A stretch of 64,000 bases of DNA, taken from NCBI RefSeq assembly GCF_028748185.1, contig NZ_CP118164.1, positions 124,001 through 188,000 of the forward strand, written 5' to 3'. The stretch is from Bremerella sp. P1 (GTDB lineage: Bacteria; Planctomycetota; Planctomycetia; Pirellulales; Pirellulaceae). Of this stretch, positions 29,731 to 45,692 are shown piece after piece; position 1 is the stretch's first letter, and the number at the start of each line of letters is the position of its first letter. A model generated the notes under the pieces. That model did no database searches, was not told where the DNA came from, and worked only from the letters and a program-made list of their open reading frames with translations. The translations under genes and the position numbers were made by a program.

Positions 29731-29891
29731 CCTGCTAGCAGCAGCATTAACCGTAACATCGGCAAAGTTTACTTAACCGGAACCTGTCTGACGTCCGAAA
29801 ACGAGAAGGTGGCTTTGTCTTCATCAGCAGAGGGCAGGGCACGCCAATCGTACCTTGTGGAACTGCCACTTAGATTTTGCGGACGGATATC

Positions 29892-31649
29892 ATGCCAGCA
29901 TCGCTTCGCCCCAACTTGCTCGCGACTCTCACCCTCGCGACGACCGTTAGCATGACCGGATGTATTTTCCCGTTCACCCGGTCAAATGATACCAAGCTGG
30001 CAGAGATTGTCGCAGAAGACGCACAACCACAAGCCGAAAAGGAAGTTGCCGCCGCGCCCAAGCCGCAAGGGGAAAAGAAGATGCCCCCGTTTGCGCGTTT
30101 CCTAGGTGGAATGTTCGGTGGTGAAAGCACCCCGCAATCTGAACCGGAACCGGAACCGGATCCGATCACCACAACTGCTGCGGAACCAACCCAGCGTGTC
30201 GCAGCCGTCCCAGTCAAGTCGACAGCTCCAGAGCCGAGCACCGTTCTGCCCGCTCAAGAATTGGTAGAAGCAAAGCCCCAGACGCCAATCTTCAATCCAC
30301 CGAACAACCAAATGCCGGTTGTGGTAACTCCGGAAACGAATCCTATGGCAGACAAGCCAGATGTCGTTTCCAAGTTCACCCAAAAGGCAACGCAGATGAT
30401 CGAGTCTCCGCGACCCGAGGTCGTTGTCCAACCAACAGTTACACCACAATCGCAGCCCCAGCCGCAACCCGCACCACAAGCAGTTCCTGCCCCGCAGGTT
30501 GCCAAAACGACGCCCGTAAAACTAGGCGACGAGGCTCTGGATGCTCATGCCCGAGCACCATGGGGCGAGAAAAAGCTGCTTGAGAAGGCCATGGCCAATA
30601 GTTCAACCAACAGCACAACGCTTGAGCACTCCTTGGAATTGGCGTTGGAAACCGTGCGGCGAGAGCGACTTGGTGAAGGGCCAGCCCCAACGACTCAACC
30701 GGCAACTCCGAAACCAGAAATGACCGCCCATGTCGAAATCGAAGAAACGCCTTCCGTTCCGGCTCAGACAAAGTCCGCACCGCCATCGATGAAGGTCGCC
30801 GCCAACCCACTTCGCACTTCCAGTACGAAAACCGATTGGTCAGGCAGTTCACTTCGCAATAGCCAGCCGCAAACCATCGTGAACGACAAACTCGCTACGT
30901 ATCCGAAGACCGACTCAAAATGGTCGCCTAAGCAGGAACAAAGTCAGCCGGCAGCGGAAGCCGTTGCTAAACAGGAAGAGCCTGCGGTGGAACCTCAACT
31001 TACGGTTAACCCGTATGCGAAGACTCCAGCAGAAGCAATCGCGGCAACACCGAATCCAGGCCCACAACTGGTCGACAACTCAACGGCAGCCGCCAAGACC
31101 GCAGAAGAGACACCGAGTACAACCGATGACATTCACTTTCAGTCGTCGCTTTTAAGCAAGCTGCAAGCGGCAAACCGTCAGGCCAAATGGGATTTCGAGA
31201 CCACACCGCAAGAAACAGTGCCCACGGCTGAAGTGGCTAAGAAGCCAGAAAATGTCATGCCGCAGATTGTGGAAAAGGACGCCGCTCCTGAACCCGAGCT
31301 TCCTCTGGTTGCCACCAAGGAAACGGAACAGCCAACTGCCGAACCTGTCCCAGCCGAGCCCAAGACGACCATTAACCCATCGGTCGCTCAGGCGGAACCG
31401 AAAGAAGAACCTCAGGTGATCAAGCCGTTCATTATCGCGGAACCAGCACGAGCCACACCGGCTCGCGGTGGCTTGATTCGGGCAGCTACGCCCCAGCCGC
31501 TGGTTGTGGAGAACCAAGCCGGCAACCAGCAACAAGTATCGCCACAAGCTCCCAAGCAACTGCCGACTCTTGCTCCTGTCATACGAGCCAGTGACTACCA
31601 GAAGCCCTTACCAAGCAAGGGCGGCTCGAAGACTTACATTGTCAACTAG
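29892..31649 (+). CDS. large Pro/Glu/Gln-rich putative lipoprotein
   Basis: A 585-residue protein from the ATG at 29892; a TTG five codons earlier is possible. The N-terminus has a signal peptide with a lipobox-like SMTGC, so it is probably anchored in a membrane. Almost the whole mature protein is low-complexity and disordered, rich in Pro, Glu, Gln, Thr and Ala (for example PQSEPEPEPDP and QSQPQPQPAPQ). Only short ordered segments are seen, such as LLEKAMANSSTNSTTLEHSLELALETVRRERLG-type helices near residues 228-260. No known domain is recognised. It converges on the kinase-tubulin gene and their stop codons overlap in CTAG. Reading of function is not possible. Confidence 0.8.
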   Translation: MPASLRPNLLATLTLATTVSMTGCIFPFTRSNDTKLAEIVAEDAQPQAEKEVAAAPKPQGEKKMPPFARFLGGMFGGESTPQSEPEPEPDPITTTAAEPTQRVAAVPVKSTAPEPSTVLPAQELVEAKPQTPIFNPPNNQMPVVVTPETNPMADKPDVVSKFTQKATQMIESPRPEVVVQPTVTPQSQPQPQPAPQAVPAPQVAKTTPVKLGDEALDAHARAPWGEKKLLEKAMANSSTNSTTLEHSLELALETVRRERLGEGPAPTTQPATPKPEMTAHVEIEETPSVPAQTKSAPPSMKVAANPLRTSSTKTDWSGSSLRNSQPQTIVNDKLATYPKTDSKWSPKQEQSQPAAEAVAKQEEPAVEPQLTVNPYAKTPAEAIAATPNPGPQLVDNSTAAAKTAEETPSTTDDIHFQSSLLSKLQAANRQAKWDFETTPQETVPTAEVAKKPENVMPQIVEKDAAPEPELPLVATKETEQPTAEPVPAEPKTTINPSVAQAEPKEEPQVIKPFIIAEPARATPARGGLIRAATPQPLVVENQAGNQQQVSPQAPKQLPTLAPVIRASDYQKPLPSKGGSKTYIVN

Positions 31650-34600
31650 AGCTCAGCCCAATGCACATCGGCGCGTGTGAGCAGTCGGTCTGCGACAGGA
31701 ATGTAATCGGGACGGTTGTCGATCAACAGTCTTGCGGCATCTCGCAAGGGGATGTTTCCGCCCGACTCCATCCAGATAACCTTAGGCAGTTTGGTTCCCA
31801 GCGGAGAACTACCGGCCAGGTGAGGAGCTGAAGTCGTCACCGTGCTATTGTCAGCCACCGACTCGGGCATAAACATCAGTCGCGAGACGGCTGGGCCTAG
31901 CTGAGTAAGGCGACAGCTGGACGAAGCGACGCGTTGCTTCCAGTCTGGTCCGTCTTCCAAAGAACTGAGGAACTGACTCTCGCTTCCTTCTTCTGAAGCA
32001 TTGCGGCGTGCCAGGTCCTTGCCACACTCCATCATGACAGCAATAAGCTTGTTGACGCCGTTCCGTTCTTCGTGCAGCAAGTTGCAAAGCCCGCCATGCT
32101 CGGAATTCAGGATGTTGTCAATCTGGTTCTCCAGGACCAAAAGCTTCTCTAGAAACTTCGGGTCCTCCATCAGAGAAGTATCATCCAATGCCATCCGCTC
32201 GCGGGCCTTCATCTCGGCCATCTCTAAGCTGACGATTGTGTTTTTGATCCACATGTTGTCACGCATGATGGCGGTACGCAGATGCTGAAACACCTGACAG
32301 GTCGCCAGCACAATGACACTGTGGGTCCGCAGCAAAGCGTAATTGAGCCATAATGCTCGGAGCTCTGACATGCCGATCCGTCGATCTATTCCGCGTTTCG
32401 ACGTTTGGTGAATTACCGGGAATAGGGCAGTTCTTACTTTTTCGACTTCCTGTTCGGTTCGATCGCCCATCGCACGGACTTTTTCTTCCAGTTCACTCAA
32501 TCGCTGATCGACGACGACGGAAAGCTGTCTCACGCCTCTCACGCGGAACGAAGACTCATTGAGAATCAAATGAATCTGTTCGAGCACCTTCTTCTGATAG
32601 TGCGCCGCAATCTGACGGATATGCGGAGCGATTTCCGAGTGCAACGAAACGGCGATCAGCTTGCCTGGTTCGGCTTCCATGTTCGAGAGGCCGATCAACT
32701 GATCGAGCGAATCGAGGACGTGAATGGTCATCTCGGCAGATGAAGGCGGGATACGAGAGGAACTAATCTCATTGGCAAAGCGACCGACCGTTTCGCTGAA
32801 ATAGTCTTCTGGTCGACCACCAATTTCGTCTTCCACTACCTGAGTGACCATGTCGATCACGCTCTCGAGACCGAACTCGCAATCCTGGAAGATCTTGGCC
32901 GAGCGAAGATCAAGGAGCCTTTGATAATGATCTGCTCGGGACGAATCCTTTGGATCGGTATCGTTTAAGTGTGCGAGTTTTCGTTGCTCTTTCTCGCCAT
33001 GTCCCGTTCCGTGCCAGCGATGCAGCAACTCCATCGTGTAGCGAGCTGCTGCCAGATCGAGATGCCCGCTCGAGCATAACGCCTTACCAGCGAAAGCCCA
33101 GGCCGAAACAGATGGACCAGTGCCTTCACTCGATTCTTCCGAATCTCGAGAACGCTGAGCAACTTCGCGGCCTTCGTACACGTTCATGTACAGCAGGTCG
33201 GCAAGGTCGTGAAGATCGACCGGCACATTCCTTGCTTCAGAACCGCCTGTCTCAAACATCGTGATCTGTTTCGAGATCTTTTCGGTCCAGCGCTGCGGCG
33301 GTATTTTCGTGACGGCGTCGCCAGGATACTCACCGGTGACTTGGAAGTGATATAGCTCACGCAGACACGCATAGGTGTTGCAGCGTGCGAGGTCTTGCTG
33401 TTCGGTTCCGTTGGGCGTTGCATGAATCAGCCAGAGCGAAACGTCGTCGACGCTGCCGCCGAACTCTTCGATGACCTCTTGCGCCAGTGCGAATGCGTCC
33501 CAAACCATACCACTGCCGGTTCCACCGCTACTGCTCATGACAAGCACGATACGCGGCTTCTCTTGCCACGCGAAGTGTTCGTTGCGAGGATCCATGTTGC
33601 CCCGAGCGAGATCAATCGCATCGGCCAAGGCATCGCGGATCTGCTCTCGCAGACGCCCCGCGTGATCAGCAAACGCAAGTCGGCCCAGCGGACGCATGCC
33701 TTCCGTTTTCAGGGACAATGGAATGTTGTAAAGCCAACGCCGGCTCATCGACTTGGTCAAATGACGCGAGAGGTTGCGATATGCCTGAGGGCGGCGCAGC
33801 GGCATTTCCACGGTCGAAAGGGAAGGGGTTCCGGCTGCGGCCCCGAGTTGCCCGGTGCTCTGCACCAGGTCGGTCGTATCCGTATCAATTGCCACACAAC
33901 GGCACCAATGCTGTTCTGTATGCGTGCCAACAAGCTCCAGACGGCGATCCACAAAGTGACGAATAATGCGACTTCCTAAGCCACCGATACCTAGAACCAC
34001 GCTGGGACGTAGCTCGCGTTGGTCGCGATTATCGGCAAACGGAGGAAGAACGCTTTGCTTGCGAGGCGTTATCTCCTCCCAAATATCGCCTGACCGTGTT
34101 TGCCGTGGTCGGCTATCCTGGCTCAAGCGGATCGTTTGAGGATCGATGTCTCCTGAAGATTGTTTGGAGTCACTCGACTCGGTGTCGTTGCAGCTGATCG
34201 TCTTTGTGTCGGTCTTGGAGGACTCGACCGGTTCATACGCACCACTACGTACCTGGGGAAGGTGGGCAATACTATCGGCGTCGATCAACGCCCTGATCAT
34301 TTCTGCGCAATTGCGATAGCGTTCCGTTGGACTTTTCGCAAGCGCCTTGGACAGGATGTCTCGATCACGCGGAGGAAGCGTGTTTAGCCGCGGTGGACTA
34401 TTAAGATGCTGGGCGGTCAACTGGGCCAGGTTGCGACCAGGGAAGGGAAGGGTGCCGGTCAGCATCTCCTGGTAAACAATAGCCAAGCTGTACTGATCGC
34501 TCTGCCGCGTCGGCTGATCGTTGAACACTTCAGGCGAAGCGTAGAGTGGTGTCAGGCCGGCCATCATCGAGGCCGTCACATCCTGGATGGATTTGACCAG

Positions 34601-35077
34601 GCCAAAGTCGGCAACCTTGGCATGATTGCCGATAATGAGCAAGTTCTCGGGCTTCACGTCCAAATGCTGAAGCGAATGAACATAAGACATGTAGTCCAAC
34701 GCTTCAGCTGCGTCAGTCATGTATCGCAGCAGTTCATCACGAGGAATGCCAGGAAGCCCCTCCTTGCGACACTCGTCGAAACGATCCTTCAAGCAGCAGT
34801 CGGCCAGTTCGGTGACGACCACCAACTGGGAATCGATCACATCGATCCGTTCCAAAGAAAGGAGAAATGGGTGGCGAAGGTCTTTGATTCGGTTGAGCGC
34901 CTTCAGCTCACGCGAGGCTCGGGCTTCGTCATGGAAACCGAACACCAACTTGACGGCCTTGGAAAGACCGCCGGGCGCATCGGCTCGCCAGACTTCGCCG
35001 TAGCCACCAGCTCCAATTCGTTGTACGAGACGATATCCGTCAACTTCTCGTACGTTTGTACTTGTCTCAATCGACAC
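31646..35077 (-). CDS. Ser/Thr protein kinase fused to a tubulin/FtsZ-like GTPase domain
   Basis: A protein of 1143 residues if the GTG at 35077 is used (AAGG upstream); a GTG at 35146 adds 23 residues. Residues 14-268 are a Hanks-type kinase: GAGGYGEV loop, catalytic Lys43 (SKAVKLV), HLDVKPEN at 138-145, DFG at 157-159 and SPE in place of APE. The loop has Leu instead of Arg in HRD. After a disordered linker (about 275-350), residues 355-620 resemble the tubulin/FtsZ superfamily. This part has a glycine-rich first loop VVLGIGGLGSR, an AIDTDTTDL strand, a RPLGRLAF segment and SSSGGTGSG at 515-523, which contains the tubulin signature [SAG]GGTG[SA]G. The remaining 500 residues are mostly helical. 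The large bacterial tubulin-like (Tubulin_2/FtsZl-2) family is the closest known group. It could couple phosphorylation to assembly of a filament or membrane process (inference). Confidence 0.85.
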   Translation of the reverse strand: MSIETSTNVREVDGYRLVQRIGAGGYGEVWRADAPGGLSKAVKLVFGFHDEARASRELKALNRIKDLRHPFLLSLERIDVIDSQLVVVTELADCCLKDRFDECRKEGLPGIPRDELLRYMTDAAEALDYMSYVHSLQHLDVKPENLLIIGNHAKVADFGLVKSIQDVTASMMAGLTPLYASPEVFNDQPTRQSDQYSLAIVYQEMLTGTLPFPGRNLAQLTAQHLNSPPRLNTLPPRDRDILSKALAKSPTERYRNCAEMIRALIDADSIAHLPQVRSGAYEPVESSKTDTKTISCNDTESSDSKQSSGDIDPQTIRLSQDSRPRQTRSGDIWEEITPRKQSVLPPFADNRDQRELRPSVVLGIGGLGSRIIRHFVDRRLELVGTHTEQHWCRCVAIDTDTTDLVQSTGQLGAAAGTPSLSTVEMPLRRPQAYRNLSRHLTKSMSRRWLYNIPLSLKTEGMRPLGRLAFADHAGRLREQIRDALADAIDLARGNMDPRNEHFAWQEKPRIVLVMSSSGGTGSGMVWDAFALAQEVIEEFGGSVDDVSLWLIHATPNGTEQQDLARCNTYACLRELYHFQVTGEYPGDAVTKIPPQRWTEKISKQITMFETGGSEARNVPVDLHDLADLLYMNVYEGREVAQRSRDSEESSEGTGPSVSAWAFAGKALCSSGHLDLAAARYTMELLHRWHGTGHGEKEQRKLAHLNDTDPKDSSRADHYQRLLDLRSAKIFQDCEFGLESVIDMVTQVVEDEIGGRPEDYFSETVGRFANEISSSRIPPSSAEMTIHVLDSLDQLIGLSNMEAEPGKLIAVSLHSEIAPHIRQIAAHYQKKVLEQIHLILNESSFRVRGVRQLSVVVDQRLSELEEKVRAMGDRTEQEVEKVRTALFPVIHQTSKRGIDRRIGMSELRALWLNYALLRTHSVIVLATCQVFQHLRTAIMRDNMWIKNTIVSLEMAEMKARERMALDDTSLMEDPKFLEKLLVLENQIDNILNSEHGGLCNLLHEERNGVNKLIAVMMECGKDLARRNASEEGSESQFLSSLEDGPDWKQRVASSSCRLTQLGPAVSRLMFMPESVADNSTVTTSAPHLAGSSPLGTKLPKVIWMESGGNIPLRDAARLLIDNRPDYIPVADRLLTRADVHWAEL

Positions 35078-35175
35078 GATTAGGGACCTTATCTCGGCTC
35101 TGGGAGTGCGATCGTCGCAAGGGAATACCCAGTTGTATATTGGCACGCACTAATGCGTTTAGCTTTCACAAGGAA

Positions 35176-36339: not shown

Positions 36340-36702
36340 TCGTCCTACCCTAATGCTGGCGTCTACTCGAAAACCGACACCGGACTGGAAGTACCCGCGT
36401 CGATCAGGAAAAGTCTTGTGAAAAGCTGCCACGTTGCGCTATTTGCTGCACTCCGCGGAGATTGGTGGAATAGTCACTCCCAAATCAAACATAGGTCATG
36501 AATGCTCTGCGTGACCGGAATTCTCTTCGGTTGGCCTCCAAAAAATAACGACCTTGCTGGAGAGGGGGCCACGCAAAAAACAACTTCTAGACTTGATTTG
36601 ACCTCATCCCTGACGGTTATGAACTATCTTTTCAATAGCCGCGCGGATACCGCCATGCGCCGCCGGCTTCCATATTCTCTTTTCTGGGTAGCAGGTAGTT
36701 CT
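36340..36702. other. intergenic region between the divergent FHA and REC-CBS genes
   Basis: This stretch of about 360 bases has no gene I can support. Upstream in-frame starts of the plus-strand frame (36502, 36619) lack good ribosome binding sites and coding character. A weak promoter-like pair TTGATT (36593-36598) and TTATGA (36617-36622) points to the plus-strand gene. Confidence 0.4.
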
Positions 36703-37950
36703 ATGGTTTCACGCGCTCTGCGAATCGTCGTCGTCTCTGAGGACCGTCAGCACCTTCGCGATTGCTTCGACTTCTTTGTCGCTTGTGGATATGAGGTTGA
36801 AACGCGCTGCGACTCGGTTTACCGCGAGTCCGATTCGCCCCAGAAAAAGGATGTTTTGATCTACGACTACGATGGCAGCCAGTCGACCATCAGTCACAAC
36901 AACCTATTCAAGATTGCCGTCGTTCCGGCAGATAAGACCGACCTGGTTGAGAAAGTCATTTCTGAGGCCGCCGACGATGTTGTTTTGAAGCCGGTCACCC
37001 CCGCTAAGCTACTTGTTCGAGTGAGAGCCGCCGCGGCGATACTCGAAGCAAGAGTAGCCGTTTCCCAGCAATTCGGGCGCAATCAGCGCAATCGCTATCC
37101 TGGCGAAGGCGCTTTTCTGGGAACCCTGCAAAACACGATCGAACAGATATCCGTTCACGGTCACTGCGTTTGCGCAACGCTGTTCAATGTTTCTAACTCG
37201 ACTTCCGATCGTTATCGGGAATGGCTGACCGGCCTCGAGGCGACCGGACTTCCTGATTCACGCATCTTCGAGTTATCCGGCAATCGCGTTGCGGTGGTTA
37301 CCCCAGCGTCTTCGCCCGATCAGGTGACCCACTGGGCGGCCGATCAGATGGCGCAGGCCTCAGTCCGCGATACCTCGCAGGCCGATGTTTCGCCGCTTAG
37401 TGTTTCAGGAAGCTTCGTGAGCACGCGTAACGAAGCTTCCACCAGCGAGCAAGTGTCGCTGCTGCTGACCGATCGTTTGAACCTGGCTTTGAGTCTGGGC
37501 GAAGGCCTTCTGGTCGATGATTCGTTGGAAAACGAGTGGCTGGCACAGCAACCCACGGGCAGTATCTTCGATGGCATGACCGCCGAGGATATCATGCAGC
37601 CCACGACGGTCCGTCTGAATGCTTCGGACAACGTCGAAAATGCGCTGGAGGCGATGCGACTGTGGAATGCGGACATTGCGCCGGTTTTCCAAGCCGACGG
37701 TACCCCCTGTGGTCTTATCCGCACGGATGATCTTGTCGAGATTGAAGACAAACAGCAGGCCATTGGACGCTACTGTTTGCCGAATATTCCCCAGGTTCGC
37801 TGTGATTCGACATTCAACGAGTTCGTCGCGTTATTCTCCTCGAACGATTCCTCCTGGCTGCAAGTCCTGCGAGAGGACACGCCGGTTGGTGTCATTCACT
37901 GCGACGACTTGACCTCGATGAATTCGCCTGTGATGGTTTCCCTGCCGTAA
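36703..37950 (+). CDS. receiver-like / degenerate GGDEF / CBS-pair protein
   Basis: A 415-residue protein from the ATG at 36703, chosen because the receiver fold begins at once (SRALRIVVVSEDRQHL) and GGTAG-type sequence precedes it. Residues 4-120 resemble a receiver with acidic pocket Glu-Asp, a central IYDYDG that could hold the phosphorylated aspartate, and a VVLKPVTP lysine. Residues 135-285 resemble a GGDEF domain whose signature has become LSGNRVAVVTP. It ends LLLTDRLNLALSLGEG, like the usual AD.ALY.AK..G end. Residues 300-410 are a pair of CBS motifs (TAEDIMQPTTVRLNASDNVENALEAM, then GLIRTDDLVEI), which often bind adenine nucleotides. It is divergent from the FHA-EAL-like gene. Function is unknown, probably regulatory. 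Confidence 0.72.
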   Translation: MVSRALRIVVVSEDRQHLRDCFDFFVACGYEVETRCDSVYRESDSPQKKDVLIYDYDGSQSTISHNNLFKIAVVPADKTDLVEKVISEAADDVVLKPVTPAKLLVRVRAAAAILEARVAVSQQFGRNQRNRYPGEGAFLGTLQNTIEQISVHGHCVCATLFNVSNSTSDRYREWLTGLEATGLPDSRIFELSGNRVAVVTPASSPDQVTHWAADQMAQASVRDTSQADVSPLSVSGSFVSTRNEASTSEQVSLLLTDRLNLALSLGEGLLVDDSLENEWLAQQPTGSIFDGMTAEDIMQPTTVRLNASDNVENALEAMRLWNADIAPVFQADGTPCGLIRTDDLVEIEDKQQAIGRYCLPNIPQVRCDSTFNEFVALFSSNDSSWLQVLREDTPVGVIHCDDLTSMNSPVMVSLP

Positions 37951-43961: not shown

Positions 43962-45692
43962 ATGGAATCGATGATGAACCCGATGACCAGCGCCCCACCT
44001 CGGCTTGGTAATCTTTTGATCCGCCGCGGGTACGTGACCGTCGAGCAACTGGAACAAGCACTCGCCTATCAGAAAATGAAAGGCCAGGGCAAGCTTCTGG
44101 GTGAAATCCTTGTCGAGCTTGAATTCTGCTCCGAGGACCACGTCATCGAGTGTTTGGCGACCGAGTACGGTGTACCTCATGCGCGGTTGGAAGCCCGTCT
44201 GTACGACCCGAAAGTGGTCGACCTGCTTCCTCGCGAATACATCGAAAAGCACGGCATTTTTCCGCTGTTCAAAATCCGAGGGGTGCTGAGTGTTGCCCTA
44301 TCGGAACTCTCGAACCTGTTTCTGATCGACGAGATCAAAACCCAAACAGGTCTTCAGGTTCAAATTGTTGCGGCGTCGTCCAAAGACATCCGCCGCATGA
44401 TCTCGCAACTGCCTGACTCGCGGGTCTTCGTGATCGATGACATCATCGAAGACAACAACGAGACCGAAGTCACGCTGATCGAGGATGCGATTGAAGACAT
44501 TGGTGACGTCGAAGAAATCGCCGGTCAGTCCCCAGTGATCCGACTGGTGAACTACGTCGTCTACAACGCAGTAAAAGAAGGGGCAAGCGATATTCATATC
44601 GAGCCCGCCGAACGCTGCATGCGAGTTCGCTACCGGATCGACGGCAAGCTGCACAAATCGCTCGAAGTTCCGATCCACTTGCTCAACGCGGTCAGCAGTC
44701 GTATCAAGATTATGGCCGGGCTCGACATCAGCGAACGCCGGTTACCGCAGGATGGCCGCGTGAACGTGATGCTCGACTCGCGCAAGATCGACCTTCGTGT
44801 GAGCACCTTCCCAGGCAACCGAGGCGAGAAGACGGTAATTCGTGTTCTCGATACCAAGAAGGTCACGCTCGTCCTTAAGAACCTGGGCTTCGCCGAAGAC
44901 ATTCTCACACGGCTCTCCGCCAACGTGCATGCTCCCAACGGCATCGTCCTGGTTACCGGCCCGACCGGTAGTGGTAAGTCGACGACACTCTATGCGGCGC
45001 TCAATGAGATCGCCACCATGGAGAACAACATCTGCACGGTGGAAGATCCCATCGAATACCACTTGCCGCTGATCAATCAATTCCAAGTCCAAGAACGCGT
45101 CGGCCTGACGTTCTCGGTCGCTTTGCGTACGCTGTTGCGACAAGATCCCGACGTGATCATGGTGGGTGAAATTCGTGACGAGGAAACAGGGCGAACTGCC
45201 ATTCAAGCGGCTTTGACCGGTCACTTGGTGCTCAGCACGCTGCACACCAACAACGCTCTTTCCGCAGTCACGCGACTGGTCAACATGGGCGTCGAGCCCT
45301 ACTTGATTGGTGCCGCACTCAACATGGTTCTCGCACAGCGACTTGTTCGACGAATTTGTCCGAAGTGCAGCGAAGCGTATGAACCGGACCGCAACCTTCG
45401 TAAGGCCCTCGACCGGATGGGCTACGAGATCGATTCCTTCCGTCGCGGTGTTGGCTGCCGGGCATGTCGCAACACCGGCTACAGCGGACGTATCGGCGTT
45501 CACGAACTATTGACCATTTCGGACGAACTGCGAGATGCCATCGTCAATGGTGCTTCGCTGGCCGAGATGCGGAAGATCGCTCAGAACAACAACTCGTTGA
45601 TCGGGATGCAGCTAGACGGATACCGCAAGGTGAAAGAAGGAATCACGACCGTCGAAGAAGTCATTCACGCGACCGGGGACATCGTCTATTAA
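43962..45692 (+). CDS. pilB: type IV pilus / type II secretion assembly ATPase (PilB/GspE) with MshEN-type domain
   Basis: A 576-residue hexameric ATPase that powers assembly of pilin subunits at the inner membrane. The N-domain matches the MshEN pattern RLGxxLxxxG...LxxALxxQ...LGEILVELEF...V, which in some proteins binds cyclic di-GMP. The second N-domain runs to about residue 150. Walker A GPTGSGKST is at 333-341, followed by the Asp box VEDPIEYHLP, Walker B DPDVIMVGEIRDEETGRTA and the His box GHLVLSTLHTN. The tetracysteine zinc motif is CPKC...GCRAC. The gene belongs to the kinase-regulator-STAS-pilB-pilC operon. PilB versus GspE cannot be decided. Confidence 0.93.
   Translation: MESMMNPMTSAPPRLGNLLIRRGYVTVEQLEQALAYQKMKGQGKLLGEILVELEFCSEDHVIECLATEYGVPHARLEARLYDPKVVDLLPREYIEKHGIFPLFKIRGVLSVALSELSNLFLIDEIKTQTGLQVQIVAASSKDIRRMISQLPDSRVFVIDDIIEDNNETEVTLIEDAIEDIGDVEEIAGQSPVIRLVNYVVYNAVKEGASDIHIEPAERCMRVRYRIDGKLHKSLEVPIHLLNAVSSRIKIMAGLDISERRLPQDGRVNVMLDSRKIDLRVSTFPGNRGEKTVIRVLDTKKVTLVLKNLGFAEDILTRLSANVHAPNGIVLVTGPTGSGKSTTLYAALNEIATMENNICTVEDPIEYHLPLINQFQVQERVGLTFSVALRTLLRQDPDVIMVGEIRDEETGRTAIQAALTGHLVLSTLHTNNALSAVTRLVNMGVEPYLIGAALNMVLAQRLVRRICPKCSEAYEPDRNLRKALDRMGYEIDSFRRGVGCRACRNTGYSGRIGVHELLTISDELRDAIVNGASLAEMRKIAQNNNSLIGMQLDGYRKVKEGITTVEEVIHATGDIVY

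Follow-up and report, generated by a model that had tools for sequence, protein, structure and literature searches.

A stretch of 64,000 nucleotides from Bremerella sp. P1 (contig NZ_CP118164.1, positions 124,001 to 188,000; hereafter the window) carries a gene that joins a Hanks-type Ser/Thr kinase to a tubulin-like domain of the Tubulin_2 family. Kinase-tubulin fusions are already known and the fusion as such is not new, since it is mentioned in papers of 2010 (PMC2875224), 2023 (PMC9871819) and 2024 (PMC11032199). Its genomic context, an association with genes for an FHA-EAL protein and an AAA+ ATPase, is the part for whose conservation we found no earlier description.

The kinase-Tubulin_2 fusion and its predicted fold

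The fusion gene is a single open frame with a GTG start and no internal stops (Table 1). An alternative in-frame GTG lies upstream at 35146 and gives a product of 1166 residues. The first-pass annotation had the coordinates right and stated no strand; the gene lies on the minus strand. A Hanks kinase joined to a tubulin-superfamily domain, as proposed there, was borne out by Pfam matches to Pkinase and Tubulin_2 (PF13809, 85 bits against a cut-off of 27) and by the positions of the motifs: HLDVKPEN at 138, DFG at 157-159, the T1 loop GIGGLG at 363-368 and the T4 loop SGGTGSG at 517-523. In the same scan the Tubulin/FtsZ profile PF00091 reached 22.9 bits, under its cut-off of 33.

Table 1. Features of the fusion locus, in window coordinates.
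Feature	Start	End	Strand	Basis and remarks
Kinase-Tubulin_2 fusion gene	31646	35077	-	Open frame and Pfam; 1143 residues
Hanks-type Ser/Thr kinase domain	34313	35035	-	Residues 15-255; Pkinase E 4.4e-29
Thr/Ser-rich linker	34013	34270	-	Residues 270-355; sequence; holds TKTI and TIRL
Tubulin_2 GTPase-like domain	33323	34000	-	Residues 360-585; Pfam E 8.1e-24, model and Foldseek
Mainly helical region (predicted)	31919	33073	-	About residues 669-1053; AlphaFold secondary structure
Small alpha/beta domain near the C-terminus (predicted)	31685	31918	-	About residues 1054-1131; AlphaFold model
Conserved tail RxDxxW (here RADVHW)	31658	31675	-	Residues 1135-1140; alignment and pattern counts in relatives
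FHA-EAL protein	35242	36432	-	FHA E 4.7e-18; FHA intact, EAL half degenerate; relatives, residues, model and Foldseek
Degenerate receiver/GGDEF-like/CBS protein	36502	37950	+	CBS E 4e-7; divergent from the FHA-EAL gene
AAA+ ATPase, fusion-linked subfamily	38119	39495	-	Weak Pfam AAA matches, intact GAPGNGKT; co-occurrence

A profile search with an alignment of the domain yielded 134 relatives, the best 80 of which make up the named loci used below; a search of genome contigs with the single fusion protein as query found no relatives. The nine kinase residues checked were present in 113 of 113 fusions, and the Hanks set (glycine loop, VAIK Lys, HxD Asp, DFG Asp and APE Glu) was likewise complete in 113 of 113. 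The third column of T1 is Gly in all 113. T4 begins with Ser or Ala, followed by Gly in 112 and Gly in 111 sequences, with Gly in the fifth column in 97 and in the last in 111. An N-terminal kinase precedes the domain in 38 of 42 Tubulin_2 frames from the phylum (the exceptions are L052, L055, L070 and L071) and in 79 of the 80 named loci, where the exception, L086, begins at a contig end. The joining of the two domains is therefore more than a chance event.

Makarova and Koonin defined the FtsZl1 family in 2010 and noted four planctomycete members with an extra N-terminal kinase domain (PMC2875224). The relevant passage of the 2023 paper equates FtsZ-like with Tubulin_2 and names the N-terminal kinase on planctomycete members (PMC9871819), and that of the 2024 paper ranks the tubulin-like domain first in frequency among partner domains exclusive to cytoplasmic kinases (PMC11032199). 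Both passages are silent on the FHA-EAL and AAA genes, the linker sites and the C-terminal tail described below. The fusion belongs to this FtsZl1/Tubulin_2 family and resembles FtsZl1 in its Tubulin_2 domain, its GTP-loop motif and the helical C-terminal half found in both. Its earlier placement in a "Tubulin_2/FtsZl-2 group" thus stands for Tubulin_2 and falls for FtsZl2, since the text of the 2010 paper puts planctomycete kinase fusions in FtsZl1; FtsZl2, a proteobacterial family according to that text, is ruled out (PMC2875224). In the open-licence literature we found no demonstrated function for FtsZl1/Tubulin_2 proteins.

Residues 350-1143 were modelled with AlphaFold from 73 aligned sequences, giving a mean predicted local distance difference test score (pLDDT) of 87.9 and a predicted template modelling score (pTM) of 0.80. 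Foldseek comparison of the model with the PDB returned 45 matches at E<=0.001, all of them FtsZ and CetZ chains together with one chain of a gamma-tubulin ring complex; the best had an E of 5.8e-5, a probability of 1.00 and a template modelling (TM) score to the target of 0.46. The viral matches were phage tubulins. The structural comparison that the first-pass annotation had called for thus gave a fold match, and by model and Foldseek together residues 350-1143 are predicted to have the FtsZ/tubulin fold. A sequence profile compared with the PDB gave no tubulin match better than E 0.97. In the model a strand (256-261) precedes a helix (269-286); we read the pair as the probable S6-H7, elements left unplaced by the 2010 authors.

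The catalytic T7 loop of FtsZ and tubulin is NxDxx[DE]. An acidic residue lies three residues ahead of the conserved R295 in 58 of 73 fusions. The protein thus shares with FtsZ and tubulin the predicted fold and the T1 and T4 loops, but differs from them in falling under the PF00091 cut-off and in having no recognisable T7 loop of the NxDxxD type.

The last 500 residues had been annotated as of unknown fold, but the model resolves this part into a long helical region, a small alpha/beta domain and a short conserved tail. Helices dominate residues 669-1053 of the model, so that the long helical or coiled-coil region typical of FtsZl1 is predicted to be present, while the final domain is alpha/beta and not purely helical. 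A C-terminal profile compared with PDB sequences matched coiled coils and helical bundles only. The tail follows the pattern RxDxxW. In a first alignment (n=39, made without the 4 of 42 frames that lack a kinase) the Arg was present in 39, the Asp in 38 and the Trp in 38 sequences. The pattern occurs in 71 of 75 complete named fusions, leaving aside 5 of the 80 that are truncated at the 3' end, against 1.3% of shuffles.

One family, f13 (L063-L069), has three kinase-tubulin genes per genome, some as tandem pairs (L066, L068), and the tail is present in 9 of 9 f13 fusions, 4 to 23 residues before the end. A stricter form of the pattern was not common to the last 40 residues of the partner proteins (0 of 73, 0 of 57 and 0 of 26). 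The FHA-EAL and AAA proteins are unsupported as partners of the tail, because f13 fusions retain it without those neighbours.

Partner genes, linker sites and the two states of the EAL domain

The FHA-EAL gene lies 164 bases upstream of the fusion on the same strand, followed by the divergent receiver/GGDEF-like/CBS (REC-GGDEF-CBS) gene and the AAA+ ATPase gene. The identities of the first two come from their relatives: Pfam EAL was found in 18 of 20 FHA homologues and is missing from the window's copy, and aligned homologues of the CBS protein (n=13) carry GGDEF in 11, CBS in 7 and a receiver in 4 cases. The GG[DE]EF motif itself is absent from the window's 36502-37950 protein.

An FHA-EAL homologue is present in 50 of the 50 named loci that have at least 5 kilobases (kb) of upstream and at least 2 kb of downstream flank, the 30 of 80 short-flank loci being left out, and in 70 of all 80. 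The corresponding counts are 41 of 50 and 56 of 80 for the AAA gene, and 15 of 50 and 25 of 80 for the REC-GGDEF-CBS type. Clustering of the neighbours in 37 loci, done without a gene-by-gene Pfam scan, gave these same three as the widespread ones, and their order and strand vary between lineages. EAL genes are scarce, with 61 across 31 fusion genomes, and 24 of the 61, spread over 22 genomes, are found no more than 8 kb from a fusion, where about 0.2 would be expected. The exceptions are three f13 genomes and the six genomes of the window's genus, whose local EAL has degenerated beyond recognition by Pfam. With 2 to 14 GGDEF genes in each genome, proximity of GGDEF alone would weigh less.

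The AAA gene belongs to a distinct subfamily. At a score of at least 698 bits, all 22 non-f13 fusion genomes compared carry it, with 24 copies for their 24 fusions; of these copies, 23 lie within 8 kb of a fusion and one is on another contig. Copy number tracks fusion number, with two copies in two-fusion genomes, and no copy was found in 20 fusion-less genomes or in 4 f13 genomes. A paralogue scoring 638 bits or less is widespread, including in genomes without a fusion, and the two score ranges are cleanly separated. Fusion-linked members supplied the profile, which biases it towards them, and the comparison covered 22 of the 28 non-f13 fusion genomes. Because FHA-EAL and dedicated ATPase genes adjoin the fusion in many relatives, this conserved context suggests that the tubulin-like part is a signalling hub. 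A copy of the AAA paralogue, with 52% identity to the fusion-linked ATPase, is encoded elsewhere in the window's own genome (L073, C1:6760066-6761328).

FHA domains recognise phospho-Thr and are selective for the residue at position +3. The linker between kinase and tubulin-like domain is rich in candidate sites of this kind. After removal of 10 near-copies from 76 linkers, the strict motif T.[VIL][FLIV] occurs in 32 of the remaining 66, whereas shuffled linkers gave 9.5 +- 2.7 and reached the observed value in 0 of 500 trials. The Ser form of this motif was not enriched in the same set (13 against 11.2 expected from shuffles). We divided the linkers by the state of the neighbouring EAL domain, omitting the 10 of 66 with no EAL state. 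The strict Thr motif was found in 16 of 31 linkers with an intact EAL (4.5 expected, 0 of 1000 shuffles) and in 14 of 25 with a degenerate EAL (3.2 expected, 0 of 1000 shuffles), together 30 of 56 where FHA-EAL is present. By comparison, f13 linkers, which have no FHA-EAL neighbour, carried it in 1 of 15 (2.8 expected), 3 of 18 having been dropped as near-copies.

On the FHA side, R40, S54 and N76, which we take to be the Arg/Ser/Asn ligand residues, are invariant in 67 of 67 FHA-EAL proteins. The EAL half exists in two states. Of ten catalytic or binding residues checked in 89 proteins, a set that includes some duplicate records from two sources, all ten are kept in 52, nine in 2, and six or fewer in 35. 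An AlphaFold model of the window's FHA-EAL protein (pLDDT 81.4, pTM 0.62) found EAL entries in Foldseek, with a best E of 3.2e-11 and a TM score to the target of at most 0.67 among the matches listed; the protein is thus still predicted to fold as FHA plus EAL.

The state of the EAL domain was compared with that of the REC-GGDEF-CBS neighbour in 58 loci with 5 kb upstream. A degenerate EAL is paired with a neighbour lacking GG[DE]EF in 19 of 20 loci, while among the 38 loci with an intact EAL none has such a degenerate neighbour and 2 have one with an intact GGDEF. Given this co-occurrence and the retained predicted FHA-EAL fold, both enzymes of cyclic di-GMP (c-di-GMP) turnover in the window's lineage appear to have degenerated jointly, with the partnership retained. 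The same genome encodes a second FHA-EAL protein distant from any fusion (L079, C1:841085-842095), which holds its sole Pfam-detectable EAL.

A proposed phosphorylation-dependent scaffold and competing explanations

We put roughly even confidence in the following scheme, in which the fusion would be a cytoplasmic signalling scaffold. The N-terminal kinase would autophosphorylate Thr sites of its own linker, in cis or between adjacent subunits, and the neighbouring FHA-EAL protein would then bind the linker phospho-Thr through its FHA domain. What docking would bring to the tubulin-like scaffold is a phosphodiesterase for c-di-GMP; in the window's lineage it would be an EAL-fold protein without catalytic function. 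The tubulin-like domain, through its nucleotide state or its assembly (possibly polymerisation), might set the packing density of kinases and linkers and so gate docking, and the fusion-linked AAA+ ATPase could remodel or disassemble the complex.

The kinase-linker-docking half of the scheme is supported by the sequence statistics and by the precedent of DgcB from Bdellovibrio, an FHA-GGDEF diguanylate cyclase that is activated by a phosphopeptide read by its FHA domain, as described in the relevant part of PMC6733907. Both systems fuse FHA to a c-di-GMP enzyme. DgcB, however, makes c-di-GMP and reads its own N-terminus, whereas in the present case FHA is joined to EAL, and the candidate peptide is part of the linker in a different protein. 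More tentatively, the whole may form a phosphorylation-gated c-di-GMP machine in which the assembly state of the scaffold would be passed on to local c-di-GMP, the window's hub having since become independent of c-di-GMP hydrolysis.

Several observations weigh against this scheme. The window's own EAL half keeps 0 of the 10 catalytic residues, so no phosphodiesterase activity can be assumed there, and its linker has only the loose form T..[FLIV] (TKTI, TIRL). Across the 66 linkers the loose Ser form S..[FLIV] is also mildly enriched (54 against 46.0; 7 of 500 shuffles). The canonical FtsZ T7 motif is unrecognisable; 6 of 73 fusions have any match to N.[DE]..[DE] in the region. The AAA gene is absent within the flank of 9 of the 50 loci, and in the window a divergent gene separates it from the fusion, so that their co-transcription is not given. 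In 7 of 7 f13 loci examined there is no FHA-EAL or AAA gene of this kind beside the fusion; as f13 has up to three copies per genome and lacks both, the fusion can function without them. A quick tree of the 113 fusions explains EAL state by 5 changes, with a single origin possible, and the locus counts are not independent events because the loci are related by descent.

Shared descent could also account for the partnership itself, as inherited synteny without joint function. All loci are from planctomycetes and are related to one another, and the dead EAL of the window fits such an account, but the partners persist while their order and strand change, AAA copies follow fusion number, once from another contig, and the linker Thr motif tracks the presence of FHA-EAL. 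We therefore consider inherited synteny unlikely. A membrane-remodelling cytoskeleton is rather unlikely also. Here the fusion would be an FtsZl1 filament, as proposed in 2010 (PMC2875224), regulated by its kinase, with the c-di-GMP proteins reporting the state of the cell. Membership of FtsZl1, the predicted tubulin fold and the helical C-terminal half agree with this. The main FtsZl1 context in the text of that paper, vWA, GTPase and OmpA genes (frequent but not universal), is however not that of the window, where a Pfam scan of 16 neighbours found none of the three; the widespread neighbours in the 37 clustered loci are instead AAA, FHA-EAL and REC-GGDEF-CBS, and the 2010 authors themselves doubted that FtsZl1 forms filaments (PMC2875224).

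A part in cell division in place of FtsZ is most improbable. The first-pass annotation had pointed to bacteria dividing without FtsZ, and this holds for the window's organism: its genome (1 contig, 6,955,728 bases, 99.68% complete) has no PF00091 match, the control being positive in 13 of 14 genomes, and it has one Tubulin_2 gene. PF00091 is found in 5 of 393 genomes of the phylum sample, four from one genus and the fifth through a fusion gene. A stand-in role is unlikely on distribution, because Tubulin_2 matches occur in 49 of the 393 genomes and exceed the cut-off in 45, leaving 348 of this FtsZ-poor phylum without one, and because within the window's own family code only 13 of 20 genomes have Tubulin_2 and 7 have none. 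The sole genomes of the 393 with a separate PF00091 gene are four of family f65 (G111, G132, G155 and G332); the proteins, of 445-460 residues, also match Tubulin_2 weakly and may be true FtsZ or an intermediate form.

We regard a conflict or anti-phage system built on a kinase and a tubulin-like scaffold as very unlikely. The kinase part matches PADLOC kinases such as mad6 and PD-T4-6, and GTPase-tubulin-HSP70 conflict systems, described in part of PMC7159879, likewise place a tubulin-superfamily protein inside a multi-gene signalling system. The PADLOC matches of the fusion are, however, confined to its kinase domain, the AAA protein matches IetA over a short segment (E 6.6e-8), and the FHA-EAL and REC-GGDEF-CBS proteins have no match. 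Those conflict systems use a GTPase and HSP70, neither of which the Pfam scan of the window showed beside the fusion, and the module, conserved with stable partners in different orders, lacks the patchy distribution of a mobile system.

The signalling scaffold has a forerunner in the 2010 discussion. A reviewer drew attention to Pirellula staleyi, where FtsZl1 has one gene for a diguanylate phosphodiesterase as its neighbour, and suggested signalling, to which the authors replied that such neighbours were limited to one or a few related organisms (PMC2875224). Here, by contrast, the neighbour joins EAL to FHA, and its conservation extends across families and orders. Beyond the reviewer's remark, we found no description of the FHA-EAL/kinase-tubulin/AAA association in the open-licence literature, the supplementary context tables of 2010 excluded. 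The present counts reopen the question of c-di-GMP signalling that the authors had set aside, and they raise a concrete one, the binding of the FHA domain to the phosphorylated linker. If the scheme is true, the fold would serve in an unusual way, as a tubulin-superfamily scaffold for second-messenger signalling in bacteria lacking FtsZ.

Other genes near the fusion

Converging on the fusion is a gene at 29877-31649 (+) that overlaps its stop by 4 bases and encodes a Pro/Ala/Glu-rich protein of 590 residues that begins like a lipoprotein and matches nothing in Pfam. Of 39 locus labels, 10 have a homologue in this position, and all 10 carry the window's family code.

MshEN is a c-di-GMP-binding domain, and a GspE/PilB-type ATPase with an MshEN domain is encoded at 43962-45692, followed by a T2SSF/PilC gene that runs to 46903 (+) and preceded by histidine kinase, receiver and STAS genes. 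A PilB relative was found in 1 of the 80 named loci, a count that carries no weight for or against a type IV pilus link because those flanks end about 8 kb upstream of the fusion start, the window's gene lying 8.9 kb upstream.

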